This document shows positions 24,844-36,033 of a stretch of 38,615 nt of DNA, piece by piece. Both the position numbers and the translations under genes were made by a program. The notes under the pieces were generated by a model. It was not told where the DNA came from, ran no database searches, and saw only the letters and a program-made list of their open reading frames with translations. Each line of letters begins with the position of its first letter. The first letter of the stretch is position 1. Source of the DNA: Candidatus Zixiibacteriota bacterium (GTDB lineage: Bacteria; Zixibacteria; MSB-5A5; GN15; PGXB01); assembly GCA_900498245.1 (NCBI GenBank), contig LS998015.1, positions 2,504,481-2,543,095 on the forward strand, in the 5' to 3' direction.

Positions 24844-26247
24844 TTATTTGACCTTTATCCCACTGCCAGCGACTTCTTCCAATTCGGCAGTGAAATGCCT
24901 TAAATATGTCGCCTGACGAGTCAGCCGATACCCTTTCAATGACTCTTTCTTCCGGGCAATCCGCCCGATGACATCCGCCACATAGTCAAGATGACTGGCG
25001 GTAAAGACTCTCCGCGGTACGGCTAGACGAACCAATTCCCGCGGGGCCTTCATTTCCTCACCGGTTACCGGGTCGATTCCGCCGAACATCATCGAACCGA
25101 TTTCCACCGCCCGGATTCCCCCTTCGCGATACAACTCCACCGTAAGTGACTGCGCCGGGAATTGGTGATACGGAATATGCGGCAGGAATCGGCCGGCATC
25201 GATAAATATTGCATGTCCTCCGGTCGGCTTTATGATCGGCGCTCCCGCCTGTTCTATCATCCTTCCAAAGTATTCAATCTGCCCTACCCGATACGCCAAA
25301 TAATCCTCGTTTAAGGCTTCCATCAGTCCGGTCGCCATGGCATCGATATCCCGCCCCGACATTCCGCCGTATGTGAAAAACCCTTCAATGACGATTAATA
25401 GTTCCGTCATCTTCCGGGCCAGTTCATCATCATTGACAGCAATAAACCCGCCCATATTCGCGAGACCGTCCTTTTTGGCCGACATTAAAGCCCCGTCCGC
25501 ATACGAAAACATTTCCTGCGCAATTTCCTTGATGCTCTTATTTTCAAAACCCGGTTCGAATTTCTTGATAAAATAGCAGTTCTCCGCATAGCGGGCGCAA
25601 TCGAAGAAAAAGAGAATGCCGTGCTTATGACAGATCCGCGATGCTTCCTTAATGTTGGCCATCGAAACCGGCTGACCACCCGATGAATTATTGGTCACGG
25701 TCATGAAAACCACTGGGACCTTCTCGGCTCCTTTTTCCTCGATAAACCGCTCCAGTTGATGTGTGTCCATGTTCCCTTTGAACGGGATTTCGTCATCCGA
25801 GGCCGCCTCGGGGCAGGGAAAGTCGACCGGGATACCATTCTTGTGCGAGGCATTGGCCCGGGTCGTGTCAAAATGAGTATTATTGGGGACATAATCCCCT
25901 TTTTTCAGCAGCGTCGAGAAAAATATATTTTCTGCCACCCGTCCCTGATGCACCGGTATGATATGCATCTTCCCGGTAATTTCTTTCACGACCTTTTCGA
26001 AATGGATGAACGAGCGCGCCCCGGCGTATGATTCGTCGCCGAGCATCAGCGCCGCCCACTGTTGCACCGACATCGCTCCCGTTCCGGAGTCGGTCAATAA
26101 ATCGATATAAATATCCTCGGCCCTGATTTTGAATACGTTGTACCTGGCATCTCGAATCACCCTCTCCCGTTCTTCGCGCGGCAGAAGGGCAATCGGTTCG
26201 ACTGATTTTATCCGAAATGGCTCGGCCGGATGTCTTTTATTATCCAC
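24844..26247 (-). CDS. tnaA: Tryptophanase (beta-eliminating lyase family)
   Basis: The 467-residue protein is a PLP-dependent beta-eliminating lyase. The PLP lysine is expected at Lys259 in MSAKKDG. Other family elements are PVHQGRVAEN near 98-107, FFDCAR with Asp216, and PTGGHAIFIDAG near 341-352. Tryptophanase and tyrosine phenol-lyase are told apart at the position of tyrosine phenol-lyase Arg381; here it is Ile383 in AVEIGSMM, as in tryptophanases. The expected reaction is tryptophan to indole, pyruvate and ammonia in the cytoplasm. The start is GTG at 26247 with GGGAGG 4 nt upstream. It lies 117 bp downstream of the asparaginase gene on the same strand. No TnaC-type leader peptide with tryptophan was found ahead of it. 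Confidence 0.87.
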   Translation of the reverse strand: MDNKRHPAEPFRIKSVEPIALLPREERERVIRDARYNVFKIRAEDIYIDLLTDSGTGAMSVQQWAALMLGDESYAGARSFIHFEKVVKEITGKMHIIPVHQGRVAENIFFSTLLKKGDYVPNNTHFDTTRANASHKNGIPVDFPCPEAASDDEIPFKGNMDTHQLERFIEEKGAEKVPVVFMTVTNNSSGGQPVSMANIKEASRICHKHGILFFFDCARYAENCYFIKKFEPGFENKSIKEIAQEMFSYADGALMSAKKDGLANMGGFIAVNDDELARKMTELLIVIEGFFTYGGMSGRDIDAMATGLMEALNEDYLAYRVGQIEYFGRMIEQAGAPIIKPTGGHAIFIDAGRFLPHIPYHQFPAQSLTVELYREGGIRAVEIGSMMFGGIDPVTGEEMKAPRELVRLAVPRRVFTASHLDYVADVIGRIARKKESLKGYRLTRQATYLRHFTAELEEVAGSGIKVK

Positions 26248-27528: not shown

Positions 27529-29139
27529 TTACCAGGCATACATGATTATAACTTTGGGAGCATACGTTTTATCGGAGCATTCCGAAGAGATGATATAAAA
27601 CCGGCTATCAGTATATAAATAAGCCTCCGACGACGGTGTATTTAATACAATTCCATGGGTAAAGGCGCTATGGGTTCTATAAAACGAAGAGACATCGATT
27701 TGTAATTCGTCTTCCGCGGTGAAGTTGTATATATCAAATAGATGACTGAATCCCGGTCTATTGTCAAATGTGATTTCGTCTTCCGACCAATCCGTTAATG
27801 GCTCGCTGACTTTCATGATACTCGGATATGTCCCATAATATATAACGGAGAAATTTAGGACCAAAAAGGCACCAACATAATCGGCCGTATCAATTGAATA
27901 TGAAAATTGCGGCAGTTTGAAAAGAGAGTTTTCATCAAAATAGTGCCGCACGTACATTTCATCATATTGCCCATCAACCCAATAATACTCCTTTGTGAGC
28001 CATTCATTGCTATAAGTCCCCAAATCGACATCCTGACCGTAATTGGTCTGCCTGTATGAATCATAATCGGAAGAATATCTGATCATGGCGTCTTCCGTAA
28101 CATAAACAGTATCGGCCATTATTTTCCTCAACACAATGTTTTTTGCCTGCGGGACCCCGGTTATATCCAGAGTATCTATAAAATTAAAATAATTGAATTT
28201 TTTGCATTTCAGGACCTGCCTCCCTCTGGGCACCAGCGCCAATTGATAATAGCCGTTTTCGCCCGTCGTATCTGATATATTCCCCACTGACACCACTGCG
28301 TCTTTAATCGGCCCCTCGATAGCATGGGATACATACCCCACCAGATTATATTTGCTTCCCATGAGAATTATAAATGTCTTCTGCTGGGCCGTCAGGGCAA
28401 TCGTATCTTGAAAGGGATAATATTCCGGTTGATTGCACGTAATCGTTTGATTCCCTGTCGGGATTAGTGCAAATTCATAATACCCCGTCTCATTGGTGGT
28501 GTCCGCCATCCCGTTTATTGACACTATCGCCCCCGATATCGGCAAACCCGAACGATTCCTCACATACCCCACCAGATTAAACTCTGATTGCAGCGTCAAA
28601 TCTCTTCTCCTATAATTGGATGTGACCGTCACCGTATCCTCAACAGGATAATATCCGGGAAAATAACAGTAGATCGAACTCTTTCCCGATAGGGCCGATT
28701 TAAATCGATATATCCCGTCAATATCGGTCGTGTCAACTCCATCCCCAATCGAAACAACCGCCCCAGGAACATTCGCCCCGGCAAGGTTCCTAACCTGCCC
28801 CACCAGATTGGCACTATCCTGTAAGGTGATAATATAGGCGGTATTCTGGGCTACCGAAAGACTATCGCTATATAATTTAAAATCGTCGGTCTTCACCATT
28901 ACCTGATATTTCCCCGGTGTAATATTGCTAAAACTAAACACTCCGGCCGTATCCGTCAGGCAGGAATCATCCCCCAACGTCACCATCACGTCTCGTACCG
29001 GAGTCCCGAATGAAAACCGCTCCGCCTTTCCCATGACTCTCCATTCGGTTGATCCCTGCGGTTCAATGCTCTTCTTCTGACAGCCGAATATAAACAGGGC
29101 AGCGATAAAAGCCATCAATCCAAAATTCTTAACTTTCAT
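27529..29139 (-). CDS. Lipoprotein with four carboxypeptidase-regulatory-like repeats and a DNRLRE-like C-terminal domain
   Basis: The 536-residue lipoprotein precursor has a lipobox ending in FIFGC (Cys20), then QKKSIEPQGSTEWRVMGK. Four repeats of about 75 residues follow, each with a turn like GAVVSIGDGVDTTDIDGIY and a Y(F/Y)P..DT ending, as in CarboxypepD-regulatory/PEGA-type domains. From about residue 345 comes a beta-rich domain starting DTVYVTEDAMIRYSSDYD, resembling DNRLRE/CBM-type modules often found on extracellular proteins. It is a paralogue of the gene directly upstream, which has five repeats. ATG at 29139 is chosen because it starts a standard lipoprotein signal; ATG at 29148 is also in frame. 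The gap to the upstream stop codon is 14-23 bp, so both are probably on one transcript. It is probably displayed on a membrane; its binding partner is unknown. Confidence 0.75.
   Translation of the reverse strand: MKVKNFGLMAFIAALFIFGCQKKSIEPQGSTEWRVMGKAERFSFGTPVRDVMVTLGDDSCLTDTAGVFSFSNITPGKYQVMVKTDDFKLYSDSLSVAQNTAYIITLQDSANLVGQVRNLAGANVPGAVVSIGDGVDTTDIDGIYRFKSALSGKSSIYCYFPGYYPVEDTVTVTSNYRRRDLTLQSEFNLVGYVRNRSGLPISGAIVSINGMADTTNETGYYEFALIPTGNQTITCNQPEYYPFQDTIALTAQQKTFIILMGSKYNLVGYVSHAIEGPIKDAVVSVGNISDTTGENGYYQLALVPRGRQVLKCKKFNYFNFIDTLDITGVPQAKNIVLRKIMADTVYVTEDAMIRYSSDYDSYRQTNYGQDVDLGTYSNEWLTKEYYWVDGQYDEMYVRHYFDENSLFKLPQFSYSIDTADYVGAFLVLNFSVIYYGTYPSIMKVSEPLTDWSEDEITFDNRPGFSHLFDIYNFTAEDELQIDVSSFYRTHSAFTHGIVLNTPSSEAYLYTDSRFYIISSECSDKTYAPKVIIMYAW
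28231..29087 (-). repeat. Copy 1 of the duplicated lipoprotein coding segment
   Basis: This stretch aligns without gaps to 30105-30961 at a constant offset of 1874 bp. Identity rises toward the 5' end of the genes: 28947-29087 differs from 30821-30961 at only one position seen (CCCATGACTC versus CCCATGACCC). Confidence 0.8.
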
Positions 29140-29162
29140 GATAATCATTTTTAATTACCATT

Positions 29163-31022
29163 TCAATATCTATGACAAACAACCACTTTTGGTCGCTTAG
29201 TAACGTCTGAATATTCACTGGAATAAAAGGCACAATCCATTTCCTCCGGGCAGCACCCGTTGCAGCAGGAGACAGTAGTAGATAGCATTATCCCATATTG
29301 CGCGCTCATGGGATTTGAATATAAGGTGCGAATATCTAATGCCATCGTCGGACCATTGGAACCCTGCAATTCAACATACTTCCATAAGGAGGCGGATGGC
29401 CTGGTATTATTAGTTACCGTCTGCTCACTCCAATCACCCTGCAATTTGGAAATTGCGAGATATACTTCCGACATGAATCCCCCGCAAGATACATAATATG
29501 GACCTTTGGATAAAGTCAAGACAAGCGTTACCGAGTCTGCCTCAGCGATTTCAGCCGCTGTGCCTGCATCTGGCAATTTCATTAAGGATAGAGCACCCCA
29601 ATAATCATTAATGAAAACAAAAGTGTCCCCATCAAAATATAAGTCCATAAAACAGTATCCTTGCACCGCCAATGACCCGGTATTAATGTTGCTGTCTTCC
29701 AATGACTTCCTGGAGTCATAAGCGACTGTAGCATCCTCGGTCACAAAAAAGGTATCGGCGACAATTCGAAAGAGCGATATATCCAGTTGTTGTTGTATTG
29801 CCGTCACCTCCAGAGTATCCGTAAAGTCGAAATAGGACCCTTTACTGCAATTAATTAATTGATTTCCTATCGGCACCAGGGGCAGTTCATAATTGCCCAA
29901 TATGTCTGTCGTATCTTTTATCGCCCCCACCGACACTATCGCCCCTTCGATCGGCCCCTCAATATGATGATATACCTGCCCCACCAAATTGTATTTGGAA
30001 TTCATTGTAATATCATGTGTCTGTTGCCAGTCTGTCACCTGGATTGTATCCTGAAGAGGATAATATTCCCACTGATTGCAGGAAATTATTTGATTTCCCA
30101 GTGGCACCAGCGCCAATTGATAATAGCCGTTGTCATCTGTTGTATCCGCTATTTCCCCCACCGACACCACCGCCCCATGGATTGGCCCCTCGATAGTATG
30201 AGACACGTATCCCACCAGATTGTACTTGCTTCCCATTAGGATGATAAATGTCTGCTGCTGGGCCGTTATGGCAATCGTATCTTGAAACGGATAAAATTCC
30301 GATTGATTGCAGGTAATTGTCTGATTCCCCATCGGAACCAGCGCAAACTCATAATACCCCATTTCATCAGTGGTGTCGGCCATTCCATAAATTGATACTA
30401 TCGCCCCCGATATCGGCAAACCCGCACGATTCCGTACATACCCCACCAGATTAAACTCTGATTGCAGCGTCAAATCTCTTCTCCTATAATTGGATGTGAC
30501 CGTCACCGTATCCTGAAAAGGATAATATCCGGGAAAATAGCAGTAGATCGAACTCTTTCCTCCTGGGGCCGATTTAAATCGATATATGCCGTCAATATCG
30601 GTCGTATCGACCTGATTTCCGACGACTACTGCGATACCCGGAAGTTTCACCCCGGAAAGATTCTTTACCTGCCCCACCAGATTGGCGCTGTCCTGCAAGG
30701 TGATATCATAAGCGATATTCTGGGTCACCGAAAGACTATCGCTATATAATTTGAATTCGTCGCTTTTCACTGCAACCTGATATTTCCCTGATGCAATATC
30801 GTCAAATCGAAACGCCCCGACCGTATCCGTCAGGCAGGAATCATCCCCCAACGTCACCATCACGTCTCGTACCGGAGTCCCGAATGAAAACCGCTCCGCC
30901 TTTCCCATGACCCTCCATTCGGTTGATCCCTGCGGTTCAATGCTCTTCTTCTGACAGCCGATTACTATGATAGAGATAATCGATAGAATAACGAAAATTC
31001 GCCGGATAATCCGTCCCGCCAT
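29163..31022 (-). CDS. Lipoprotein with five carboxypeptidase-regulatory-like repeats and a DNRLRE-like C-terminal domain
   Basis: The 619-residue lipoprotein precursor has a lipobox IIVIGC (Cys23) followed by the same QKKSIEPQGSTEWRVMGK sequence as its neighbour. Five repeats of about 75 residues follow, for example NLVGYVRNRAGLPISGAIV and NLVGQVYHHIEGPIEGAIV, one more than in the neighbour. The C-terminal domain begins near 435 with DTFFVTEDATVAYDSRKS and ends with a cysteine-rich stretch (TVSCCNGCCPEEMDC). The start ATG has GGTGAGGAG 2 nt upstream. A promoter with an overlapping inverted repeat lies about 40 bp upstream. The sucD gene ends 95 bp before it. The C-terminal part is much less alike between the two paralogues than the repeats are, suggesting specialised ligands. 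Confidence 0.75.
   Translation of the reverse strand: MAGRIIRRIFVILSIISIIVIGCQKKSIEPQGSTEWRVMGKAERFSFGTPVRDVMVTLGDDSCLTDTVGAFRFDDIASGKYQVAVKSDEFKLYSDSLSVTQNIAYDITLQDSANLVGQVKNLSGVKLPGIAVVVGNQVDTTDIDGIYRFKSAPGGKSSIYCYFPGYYPFQDTVTVTSNYRRRDLTLQSEFNLVGYVRNRAGLPISGAIVSIYGMADTTDEMGYYEFALVPMGNQTITCNQSEFYPFQDTIAITAQQQTFIILMGSKYNLVGYVSHTIEGPIHGAVVSVGEIADTTDDNGYYQLALVPLGNQIISCNQWEYYPLQDTIQVTDWQQTHDITMNSKYNLVGQVYHHIEGPIEGAIVSVGAIKDTTDILGNYELPLVPIGNQLINCSKGSYFDFTDTLEVTAIQQQLDISLFRIVADTFFVTEDATVAYDSRKSLEDSNINTGSLAVQGYCFMDLYFDGDTFVFINDYWGALSLMKLPDAGTAAEIAEADSVTLVLTLSKGPYYVSCGGFMSEVYLAISKLQGDWSEQTVTNNTRPSASLWKYVELQGSNGPTMALDIRTLYSNPMSAQYGIMLSTTVSCCNGCCPEEMDCAFYSSEYSDVTKRPKVVVCHRY
30105..30961 (-). repeat. 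Copy 2 of the duplicated lipoprotein coding segment
   Basis: This is the partner of 28231-29087. It covers the lipobox-proximal region and the first four repeat units of the five-repeat lipoprotein. The additional fifth unit lies at about 29820-30100 and has no counterpart in the other gene. Confidence 0.8.
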
Positions 31023-31117: not shown

Positions 31118-32017
31118 CTATGTACGGACGACGATATTATCGAGATATGCCTTTATTCCCAGTTTCTTCAATATCTCCGGGATATCCATGAATGTCCGTG
31201 CCAGATTGATACCGGTGGCACTTAACGCGTCAAGTTTCGCACCGGCTCCGCCCGTCTTCCCCTCTACCATTGCCCCGGCGTGTCCCATCACTCGTCCCGG
31301 CGGTGCATATACCCCGGCAATCATTGCCACCACCGGTTTCTTCATCTTTTTAATTGTCTTGACCGCCTGCTCTTCATATTTTCCGCCGATTTCGCCGATC
31401 ATAAGCACCGCCTGAGTCTTGTGATCCTTCTCGAACATCCAGAGAATTTCATCGAAAGTCGCTCCCAGGATAGCGTCGGCCCCCAGCCCGATACAACTAC
31501 TTTCCCCGTAACCGGCCCGGGTCAGCATATCGGCGGCATAGTACATAATCGATACCGACCGGCTCACTATCCCGATATTGCCGGGCCTAAACGGGATATC
31601 CGATATGACTCCGGCCAGGGCTTCACCCGGAGTAATAATTCCCGGGCTGTTTCCACCCAGTACAGTCACCTTGGCGGCCGCCGCCTCCTTCCTTACAAAC
31701 ATCATATCCCGCTTGGGAATATTCCCCGTCGCTATAATAATCGACTTCAAACCGGCCTGAATTCCCTCGACCGCCGCCATCTTGACATCCTGCGCCGGGT
31801 AAAAAATTACACCGGTCTCGGCTTTGGTCTCCCTGACGGCTTCGGCCGCCGAGTCAAACACCGGTCTCTCTTCGATTACCGTTCCCCCCTGACCCGAGGT
31901 GACTCCGCCCGCGATATTTGTCCCATATCCGATCATCCTCTTCGTATGAAATCGTCCGGCGTCGGTCTCTAACCCCTGCACTATAACTTTCGAATATTTA
32001 TTCAGGAGAATCGCCAT
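31118..32017 (-). CDS. Succinyl-CoA ligase alpha subunit-like protein (divergent)
   Basis: The 299-residue protein aligns along its whole length with SucD. The phosphorylated histidine is kept at His246 in GRVMGHAGA, the same number as in E. coli. The MIGEIGGKYEEQA motif near 206-218 is also kept. Several core motifs differ from true SucD. The N-terminal CoA loop reads GLETDAGRFH rather than the usual GxTGxQGxFH. GPNCPG is GGNSPG, without the cysteine. SRSGT is SRSVS, and GGDP is GADA. This suggests a paralogue with another acyl substrate, so no gene symbol is given. ATG at 32017 is chosen because it is homologous to the MSILID-type start and has GGGAGG 5 nt upstream; only one base separates it from the sucC-like stop codon. 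Confidence 0.75.
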   Translation of the reverse strand: MAILLNKYSKVIVQGLETDAGRFHTKRMIGYGTNIAGGVTSGQGGTVIEERPVFDSAAEAVRETKAETGVIFYPAQDVKMAAVEGIQAGLKSIIIATGNIPKRDMMFVRKEAAAAKVTVLGGNSPGIITPGEALAGVISDIPFRPGNIGIVSRSVSIMYYAADMLTRAGYGESSCIGLGADAILGATFDEILWMFEKDHKTQAVLMIGEIGGKYEEQAVKTIKKMKKPVVAMIAGVYAPPGRVMGHAGAMVEGKTGGAGAKLDALSATGINLARTFMDIPEILKKLGIKAYLDNIVVRT

Positions 32018-32018
32018 T

Positions 32019-33215
32019 TCAGCCTCCCTCTCCCCGCTTCGATAACTCCACCGCTCTGCGGGCCGCTTCCTCAATCGCCGTATCGCCGCCGTAGAATTCA
32101 ATCAATTGGAACAATTGCGGATCTTCCCGGCGGGCTTCCTCGAAAATTTGCATCCCCTCCGGGCACATATTTCCCGTTATGCAGATAACCATCGGTTTCT
32201 TTATGCCGTGCTCTTTTAAGTACGCGACCACTCCCCGGGCGAAATCATCGCATCTTGAAATACCCCCATAACGAGCCGCAAATACCCCTTTTACATTGGG
32301 ATTGTCGTGCAGTAGCCCCAGCATCAGACCGATTCGCTCCAGATTAGAGCCGCTGCTGCTGTCCATGAAATTGGCCGGCCGTCCCCCGAAATAATGAATC
32401 AAGTCGCCAGCCATTATGCCGAATCCCGCCCCCCCCGGCATTATTCCGACATCACCATCCAAATCGAGATATGGAATTCCCCATTGCCGGGCCTGAATTT
32501 CCCGAGGCGTCATGGCGCCGTCTTCGTGACGGTCCTCTATTCCCAGCACCGCCAGTTCCGGGTGACGGAACACGGCGCTGGCATCTACTGAAATTCTGCA
32601 GTCGGCCGCGATTAATTGACCGCTTTTGGTCAACACGAGGGGATTAATCTCGGCCATCTGGACATCATATTGACGGAACAACCGAAAAAGGCCGATAATT
32701 ATGTTCGACATCTCGTTTATCTGGGTCGATTTGATTCCAGCTCTCTTGGCAATTTCGGCCGCCCGAAATGGGAATAGATCCTCGTCAATATCAAAAAATT
32801 TTCGATGAATTTTCCTCGGATTCTTTTCGGCAACTTCGTCAATTTCGATCCCGCCCGTAGCCGACACCAGAATAACCACTTTGTTCAAAATCGGATCGAT
32901 TGTCATCCCCAGATACAATTCCTTGCGTATTTCGAGCCTCTGCTCCACCAGAATTTTTTCGACCGGGCAACCGCCGATTTTGAGAGAGAATAATTCCGCC
33001 GCGATAGTTTTCGCCTCCGACGGGGAATCGGCATCGCGGATCCCCCCGGCCTTGCCCCTACTTCCGGTCAGAACCTGCGCTTTGAGCATCACCGGCCCGT
33101 TTATGGCCGCCGCCGACGCCTCAACTTCCTCGGGATTTGACGCCAGTTTGCCGCGCGGAACTGGAATGCCGAATCCGGCCAGAAGTTCCTTTCCTTCACA
33201 TTCATACAGCCGCAT
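32019..33215 (-). CDS. Succinyl-CoA ligase beta subunit-like protein (divergent)
   Basis: The 398-residue protein is homologous to SucC, with an ATP-grasp domain (about 1-240) and a CoA-ligase domain after it. Conserved elements are RGKAGG near 53-58, KELYLGMTIDP near 98-108, MAEINPLVLTKSGQ near 194-207 and the GGISRCD element. As in the partner subunit, key spots deviate: the usual HAGGRGKAGG reads LTGSRGKAGG, NGAGLAM reads PGGAGFGIM, and DVGGGA reads DSSSGS. The overall reaction class (acyl-CoA plus phosphate plus NDP, or the reverse) is likely, but the acid used is uncertain. GGAG stands 6 nt upstream of the ATG. It is transcribed first, with the alpha-like gene one base downstream. Confidence 0.77.
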   Translation of the reverse strand: MRLYECEGKELLAGFGIPVPRGKLASNPEEVEASAAAINGPVMLKAQVLTGSRGKAGGIRDADSPSEAKTIAAELFSLKIGGCPVEKILVEQRLEIRKELYLGMTIDPILNKVVILVSATGGIEIDEVAEKNPRKIHRKFFDIDEDLFPFRAAEIAKRAGIKSTQINEMSNIIIGLFRLFRQYDVQMAEINPLVLTKSGQLIAADCRISVDASAVFRHPELAVLGIEDRHEDGAMTPREIQARQWGIPYLDLDGDVGIMPGGAGFGIMAGDLIHYFGGRPANFMDSSSGSNLERIGLMLGLLHDNPNVKGVFAARYGGISRCDDFARGVVAYLKEHGIKKPMVICITGNMCPEGMQIFEEARREDPQLFQLIEFYGGDTAIEEAARRAVELSKRGEGG

Positions 33216-33575: not shown

Positions 33576-33609
33576 TCCGACCGGGCTCTCGATCAGAAGG
33601 ATTGATTCA

Positions 33610-36033
33610 ATGTTGTTAAGTGACATTCTGGTATCAGCCTGGGCCGGGAACTACGCAAAGAGGCTTTTAATATTCATGGTCATCGTCATGCCGATCGCTT
33701 TCTCCGGCGCTTCTGGTGCGGCCATCTCCGGCCGCGCCCAAATGGAGAAGTTACGACTCCAGCCGCTTGCGTTCACCGCCAACCGCGGACAATGGAGCAA
33801 CCAGGCGCGTTTTCGGGCCGGCATCTATGGCGGCGCCATTTGGTTTGCCGATAACGCCGTTTATTATCAGTTCATCCGCCCTATCGGGCCCGCCAGATCA
33901 AATTCTCAATCCGTATTATTGCACAACCGTAGTGAAATCCCCCGACAGGAGTCACTGCTTTTCAAGACTTCACTCGAAGGTGCCTGTCCTGACCCGCTTG
34001 TCATTGGCGAGGATGAAATGGACTATAAATGCAATTATTTCCACGGCAATGATTCAAACCTCTGGCGGACCGATGTTCCCAATTATGAATCGATTCTCTA
34101 TAATAATATTTATGATGGCATCGATATGCGCTTTCACGGCAATGGCGAGAAATTGGAATATGATTTCTTGATTAGACCAGGCGCCGACCCGTCGCTAATT
34201 AAGATCCGTTTCGACGGTGCCTCGTCGCTAAGAACCGACTCCTCCGGCGAATTAATCGTGGCAACCGGATAGGGCAAGGTTATCGAACAGGCCCCCGTCG
34301 TCTATCAGGATGATGCCGGCGGACACCACCTCCTCCACGGGAAATATCAATTAGAAAGTAAAAACCGGATAGGGTTCCAACTGGCTGAAAAATATGACCC
34401 GTCGATACCGCTCATAATTGATCCTACCATATCGTTCAGCACCTATTTGGGCGGATCCTCCGATGAGTCTCCGGCGGCCGTCGCCGTCAACAGTTCCGGC
34501 GAAATATTTGTCTGCGGAACCACTTCTTCATCGAATTTCCCCCTGATGACTCCATACGATAATACCTATCAGGGAACCGGCGAATGCTTCCTCACCAAAT
34601 TCAATGTTTCCGGGACCAGCCTGGCCTTCAGCACCTATTTTGGCGGGTCCGGGTATGACGCCTGTAATGATCTCTCTATCACCAATAGTTTTGGCATATT
34701 CCTAACGGGCACTACTCTTTCGGCCGATTTCCCCACCTACTACGCCGTCGATCCCACCCTGGGCGGGTCAGACGCTTTTATTACGTCGATAAGCTATAAC
34801 GGCAACGCCATTAATTTCAGCACCTTTTTGGGGGGGGCCGGTAGCGAAGCCGGAACTTCGATCGCAATCGGCTGCGTCCCCCCTTGCATTACCACATCCT
34901 TCCGTGTTTGGGTCACAGGTAATACATCCTCATCCGATTTCCCTGTCCTTAATGCCTACAGCACCAATAACAACGGTATGGAAGACGCATTTCTTACCGA
35001 ATACGCCATTACCCCCTTTTTCCCGCCCACCATATCTATGCTTGCAAGCACCTATTTCGGAGGAAGCAATTACGATTATCCAAATTCGATATTTCTTCAG
35101 GGGGGCGTGAAACCATACATTGCCGGATACACCGAATCCAGTAACTTCCCTACGGTCAATGCCTACGATAATACTTTGAAGGGAACTACTGACGCCTTTA
35201 TGGCCGGCTTCGCTTTTTCCGGCAACGGCGCCCTCTATCCGACTTTCAGCACCTATTTCGGCGGCAACGAAGATCCGTCCGTCTTCGAAGAGGCGAATGC
35301 CATTCTTATCAATGGCGCCGGTAATATTATCATGGCCGGAACGGCCGGATCCTATAATTTGGCGACCCATGGCGTGATTGACAGCAATTATCTCGGCCCC
35401 GGCGACGCCTTTATTGCGGAATTCAACAATACGGGGACTAATCTGCTGTTTTGTACCTATCTGGGGAGCGCCGGGCAGGATTATTTGCAGGGACCAAAAT
35501 CGCTGGCACTCGACGCCACCGGTAACCTGTACGTCGCCGGCGCGACCGGGTCACCCGGTTTTCCGATGGTTGACCCGATCGATTCCACTCAGAACATCAA
35601 TACCGATGGCTTCCTCGCCAAACTTAATCCGACTGCCACCCAATTGCTGTTCAGTACTTTTTTGGGCGGCAACAATACCGATATTGCCAATGCCGTTGCC
35701 GTGGATCAAAGTGCTTGTGCTTATGTCGTCGGCGCAACATCCGCCACCGATTTTCCGATGGTGAGTCCTTACGATGGAAGTCCCAATGGCGGCAAAGATG
35801 CTTTCCTGGTTAAGATTTGTCTGCCTAATATTCTGTGCGGCGATGTCAATGCCAGCGGTACGGTCAATATCCTTGACGTAAGTTATATCATAAATTATTT
35901 GTACAAGAGCGGTCCGGCGCCCAATCCCCTTCAGACGGCCGATGTCAATAATTCCGGGGGCGTCAATATCCTTGATGTATCATACTTGATAAATTATCTG
36001 TATAAAAGCGGTCCCGCGCCACACTGCCCATGA
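33610..36033 (+). pseudogene. SBBP-repeat propeller protein with C-terminal dockerin pair, interrupted by in-frame TAG at codon 221
   Basis: One reading frame of 807 codons is broken by a single TAG at 34270-34272. Both sides are clearly parts of the same protein, with no frame change. ATG at 33610 has AGAAGGA 8 nt upstream and starts a signal peptide (LLIFMVIVMPIAFSGASGA). The N-terminal module (LAFTANRGQWSNQARFRA, then YDFLIRPGADPSLIKIRFDG) is the usual partner of SBBP repeats. Immediately after the TAG it continues GKVIEQAPVVYQDDAG and then LIIDPTISFSTYLGG. Seven repeats with STYxGG-like cores follow (about 34430-35800). The end carries two dockerin-like calcium loops (DVNASGTVNILD and DVNNSGGVNILD) and ends in GPAPHCP. 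Sequencing error, a recent nonsense mutation or readthrough are all possible. Confidence 0.75.

Follow-up and report, generated by a model that had tools for sequence, protein, structure and literature searches.

We find that a single amber codon interrupts an otherwise open gene for a predicted secreted protein in the genome of a Zixiibacteriota bacterium, and that this break is most simply read as an ordinary young nonsense allele, with an error in the consensus sequence as its main rival. A recent and spontaneous change of a tryptophan codon to amber, which leaves a 220-residue fragment and is known here from one genome, is the likely explanation. The window, meaning the whole stretch of 38,615 nt that was analysed, lies in a genome of one contig (3.51 Mb, 98.9% complete). 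Translation from the ATG at 33610 to the TGA at 36031–36033 meets one in-frame stop, the TAG of codon 221 (Table 1). The sequence-only reading had described this TAG as the only break, and the rest of the frame is indeed open; it had also stated that conserved sequence continues past the stop, and DUF7948 profile positions 165–214, the SBBP repeats and Dockerin_1 are all found there in the same frame.

Table 1. Features of the interrupted gene, in window positions
Feature	Positions	Strand	Evidence or remark
Shine-Dalgarno-like AGAAGGA	33595–33601	+	8 nt 5′ of the ATG; motif seen in the sequence, function putative
Interrupted gene	33610–36033	+	Signal peptide-like N-terminus (by eye), DUF7948, SBBP beta-propeller repeats, type I dockerin
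DUF7948 (PF25778), profile positions 1–162, 5′ of the stop	33772–34266	+	E = 9.6e-43
In-frame TAG, codon 221	34270–34272	+	TGG (Trp) in 26/29 related loci; TTC, CTC and CAG in the rest
DUF7948, profile positions 165–214, 3′ of the stop, frame unchanged	34273–34428	+	E = 1.1e-10
Second copy of AACCGGATAGGG, in a different frame (Asn-Arg-Ile-Gly)	34363–34374	+	Read in the sequence
SBBP beta-propeller repeat region, outer limits approximate	34435–35835	+	PF06739, E = 8.1e-17 over the sequence 3′ of the stop
Dockerin type I domain	35839–36000	+	PF00404, E = 3.9e-14

Gene layout and predicted product

When the stop is read as a residue, DUF7948, SBBP and Dockerin_1 follow one another in a single frame, and the DUF7948 profile is matched over positions 1–214 (E = 5e-61). 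No single SBBP repeat falls below E = 0.001 alone, the best being residues 276–311, and the dockerin domain matches solved dockerins weakly (best E = 0.00058). A search of the available literature found no paper on DUF7948. The closest known proteins are putative secreted DUF7948 (PF25778), SBBP (PF06739) and Dockerin_1 (PF00404) proteins of the Zixibacteria group; the homologues in genomes G013 and G092, which are nearly full length and the best among the matches listed (46% and 45% identity, respectively), contain no stop, whereas the copy in the window breaks off at residue 221. Under translation table 11, the gene's product contains only part of the first domain. Automatic annotation would probably split the gene in two or drop part of it, which calls for caution.

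In the course of events that we propose, a G-to-A change would have turned a TGG codon for tryptophan into TAG in one gene of an environmental bacterium. Translation would begin at the ATG at 33610, behind AGAAGGA, and the protein would be directed to export, until release factor 1 would read the UAG and the 220-residue chain would be released. This fragment would retain the export signal along with some three quarters of DUF7948, would lack both propeller and dockerin, and would probably be unfolded or degraded, so that the allele would in effect be null. Beyond the stop, the first ATG, GTG or TTG lies 58 codons downstream and the first ATG 91 codons downstream. Because these starts come late and would leave out the export signal encoded upstream, the downstream part is unlikely to be translated on its own into a working protein. 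One fact counts against a simple loss of function: the gene is the sole match to the DUF7948 profile in its own genome, and its loss is therefore not obviously buffered by a paralogue with this domain.

Conservation of the gene and of codon 221

Some match to the protein is present in 93 of the 98 genomes searched (the bacterium's own genome, which is included, and its relatives), with the best candidates in each genome, up to ten, being scored. In a scan of genome contigs, 23 of the 24 loci come from Zixibacteria or Zixiibacteriota MAGs and one from a Sphingobacteriaceae MAG, which suggests Zixibacteria as the nearest named relatives; many of the 24 match the dockerin end only, and records close to the window's own may be missing from this set. 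The same-genus genome G001 holds a distant homologue only (L127), 37–38% identical in its main pieces. Around the neighbouring genes, we found no match to the interrupted gene near the MATE gene in G004 (L132) or near sucCD in G004 and G006 (L133, L134), and a match to its C-terminal part only near sucCD in G092 (L135).

After two own-genome loci were left out, 29 of 53 loci align over the stop column, and 26 of the 29 carry TGG there. Tryptophan also occupies the column in all four further loci, one of which comes from the same genus, and a stop occurs there in none of these 33 relatives. Since the family codon is TGG in 26 of 29 loci, TAG is a single G-to-A transition away. In the available part of PMC2936535, C/G-to-T/A transitions at a high rate are given as underlying the AT bias of bacterial mutation; outside codon 221, the gene offers 31 single transitions to a stop, 10 of which go through TGG. 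A young pseudogene had been one of several listed options and is the best supported of them, TGG to TAG being one step and the rest of the gene intact.

A consensus or sequencing error would leave the organism with a sense codon and an intact gene, and we regard this main rival as unlikely. It would fit with the sole break in 807 codons falling at a well conserved column of a gene that otherwise looks intact, and base modifications can produce systematic miscalls; however, the change preserves length, the family codon puts the site outside the CCWGG motif, and TGG-to-TAG is also expected as a natural mutation. According to the available part of a benchmark of Nanopore sequencing on Klebsiella (PMC6591954), CCWGG accounted for about 70% of the consensus errors made with the default basecalling models, and homopolymer lengths for most of the others.

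The state of the rest of the gene is what a nonsense pseudogene would show, with one inactivating change, no other stop and nearly all conserved DUF7948 columns kept. Within the DUF7948 part outside the stop, and with L029 dropped for its short coverage, 3 of the 40 columns with conservation of 90% or more are altered, each to a similar residue (Leu to Met, Tyr to Phe, Leu to Ile), and a larger share is altered in five relatives that contain no stops; the tryptophan column itself stands at 25 of 28 in this alignment. Downstream of the stop, the coding signal is that of a typical gene (0.249 vs a sample median of 0.258). Upstream it drops to 0.134, under the lower quartile of the sample (0.188), where the sample scores omit the first 20 codons and the score of the upstream part includes them. 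Under an earlier and weaker codon model, since replaced, the upstream part scored as low as 0.03 and the window gene went unflagged. As the low score sits upstream of the break, it is no sign of decay behind the stop.

In a tree where most forks are poorly supported, the gene's end branch measures 1.14 against a median of 0.47, and six intact homologues have longer ones. Together, the low upstream coding score and the long end branch make some relaxed selection predating the stop possible. Under the nonsense reading, too little time has passed since the mutation for the remainder of the gene to have decayed; the break is probably recent, or does not exist if the base was called wrongly. Two points weigh against this reading: an intact remainder is also expected under selection for readthrough, and the nearest full-length homologue found, at 46% identity, is too distant for a dN/dS of the recent branch.

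Termination at UAG and the case for readthrough

Release factor 1 is present in the genome (521.6 bits, over the cut-off) with no stop inside. Among the 44 tRNAs found, none has a CUA anticodon, although an unusual tRNA could escape detection, and one is a tRNA-Trp with anticodon CCA. PylS has no match in the bacterium's own genome; across 21 genomes none exceeds the family cut-off, and two give weak sub-threshold matches. TAG terminates 8 of the 25 window genes checked, in agreement with the earlier claim of at least six, as well as 58 of 220 long ORFs whose ends fall in the 438,615 bases sampled. Consequently, with release factor 1 present, no CUA tRNA, no PylS match and TAG a common terminator, UAG should terminate translation here. 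The same evidence bears out the view, taken in the sequence-only reading, that genome-wide amber reassignment is unlikely, and on its basis we reject both reassignment and pyrrolysine as explanations of codon 221.

An in-frame TAG is also what pyrrolysine-coding amber genes have in common with the window gene. Unlike their case, neither a PylS match nor a CUA tRNA was found in the window genome, and the column is tryptophan in most relatives. Methylamine methyltransferases are the usual pyrrolysine proteins, and the window protein family is unrelated to them. A Zixibacteria MAG comes from the same samples as pyrrolysine-using Deltaproteobacteria (PMC8318568), and the available part of that paper makes no pyrrolysine claim for Zixibacteria. 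The in-frame amber codon here is no pointer to an altered genetic code in the lineage.

Under functional readthrough, a little full-length protein would be made, with the stop acting as a control of dose. We consider this quite improbable. The downstream frame is intact and coding, and bacterial in-frame stops with dN/dS < 1 are on record, if mostly short-lived; but the genome has release factor 1, no CUA tRNA among the 44 found and no PylS match, none of the 33 relatives shares the stop, and the residue lost is a conserved tryptophan, as a random nonsense mutation predicts. The RNA fold around the stop is ordinary as well. Four overlapping stretches, folded without pseudoknots, gave z-scores of −0.44, 0.36, 0.39 and −0.13, and show no sign of a stimulatory RNA structure. 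Programmed readthrough, one of the options raised from the sequence, thus gains no positive evidence. A variant in which selection holds the amber codon as a dose control, rare readthrough supplies small amounts of the full-length surface protein, and the bulk of translation yields a secreted DUF7948 fragment of 220 residues that serves its own function, is in our view very improbable. Were the stop maintained by selection, it would give a natural example of a surface protein dosed through readthrough.

In the available part of their study, Belinky et al. 2021 (PMC7918605) describe in-frame stops as widespread in bacterial genes, mostly short-lived and with dN/dS < 1, and suggest that readthrough is frequent. 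The window gene resembles such nonsense alleles and young pseudogenes: a lone in-frame stop interrupts a conserved ORF that is intact elsewhere, and this stop lies one transition from the family codon in a genome where no recoding machinery was found. It is unlike the cases in that part of the study in being known from a single genome. The window case fits the short-lived kind that they describe, and adds no evidence for readthrough.

The 12-mer repeat and other interrupted genes

The 12-mer over the stop (34263–34274) recurs exactly 100 bp downstream, as the sequence-only reading had noted. Exact 12-mer repeats within 100 bp account for 0.21% of the 438,615 sampled bases, and within 2,400 bp for 2.0%; the window holds four maximal repeats of at least 12 nt within 150 bp. 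The recurrence is a mild coincidence. The bases flanking the two copies differ on both sides, and the tract common to both is therefore 12 bp only. Because 100 bp is no multiple of three, a recombination event joining the two copies would remove 100 bp and cause a frameshift, and could not restore the frame. Phase-like variation, which had been proposed, is accordingly not supported; inspection by eye found no tract of short repeated units at the stop. Phase variation by way of the 12-mer is rejected, since the copies form a direct, out-of-frame repeat at a spacing of 100 bp and the break is a substitution.

In the downstream copy the encoded residues are Asn-Arg-Ile-Gly; most relatives read Asn-Ser/Thr-Phe-Gly at these positions, and the same-family locus L046 reads Asn-Val-Ile-Gly. 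Its Arg-Ile pair (residues 253–254, at 34366–34371) faces Ser or Thr at the first position in 26 of 28 relatives and Phe at the second in 25 of 28. Judged from these aligned residues, the downstream copy is more atypical for the family than the copy over the stop.

Local copying, in which a template switch between the two 12-mers would have created the stop, is extremely improbable. An exact 12-mer over the stop and 100 bp away is uncommon (such repeats take up about 0.2% of sampled bases), and with the family codon in place the two sites would still be identical at 11 of 12 bases; yet mismatches bound the tract at both ends, the downstream copy is less conserved (Arg vs Ser/Thr in 26 of 28), which does not point to it as the donor, and there is one base to explain, for which a plain transition is enough. 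Copying from the downstream 12-mer, as the sequence-only reading had suggested, is not needed, since a single G-to-A change from the usual family codon explains the stop.

Elsewhere in the genome, interrupted genes of this kind look rare. We scanned the window and twenty 20-kb stretches (400 kb outside the window) for stops flanked on both sides by coding signal in one frame, and the scan recovered 110 of 150 planted stops. It flagged 21 places. At 19 of them, the next ATG, GTG or TTG lies at most 11 codons from the stop, which makes them look like ordinary neighbouring genes; the other two are the window gene, at 58 codons, and a place in L110, at 41. With the L110 place ambiguous, the 400 kb outside the window hold no second clear interrupted gene. 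A frameshift scan, intended to gauge assembly quality, gave four flags; at a sensitivity of 23/153 it carries no information on that quality.

At the L110 place (L110:8336, + strand), two open frames, 149 and 159 codons long, each show a coding-like signal and are separated by one TGA, after which no start codon occurs for 41 codons; this may be a case of a shadow frame.

Among the matches listed for the family, about 150 by a visual count and some of them parts of a single gene, five, the window gene included, have stops inside the aligned span. In L124 and L126, the stops fall in the first dozen aligned residues only, upstream of the likely start. Two other copies with the DUF7948–SBBP layout, L044 (G025) and L125 (G071), are interrupted by TAA, the former at the column of residue 340 and the latter at that of residue 180. 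These two breaks indicate that copies in the family are broken now and then, each at its own site.

The neighbouring genes of the window, all on the minus strand, provide several minor observations. The sucC/sucD-like pair at 31118–33215, whose listed frames overlap at 32019–32101, stays under the NCBIfam cut-offs for succinate-CoA ligase in both members. The gene at 24844–26247 is tryptophanase- or tyrosine phenol-lyase-like, passing the NCBIfam PRK13238 cut-off (674 bits vs 285) and falling below the equivalog cut-offs for tryptophanase and tyrosine phenol-lyase. At 27529–31022, two adjacent genes of 539 and 619 aa share one layout of CarboxypepD_reg-like repeats and a sub-threshold DNRLRE domain, and they look like a tandem duplication of surface proteins.
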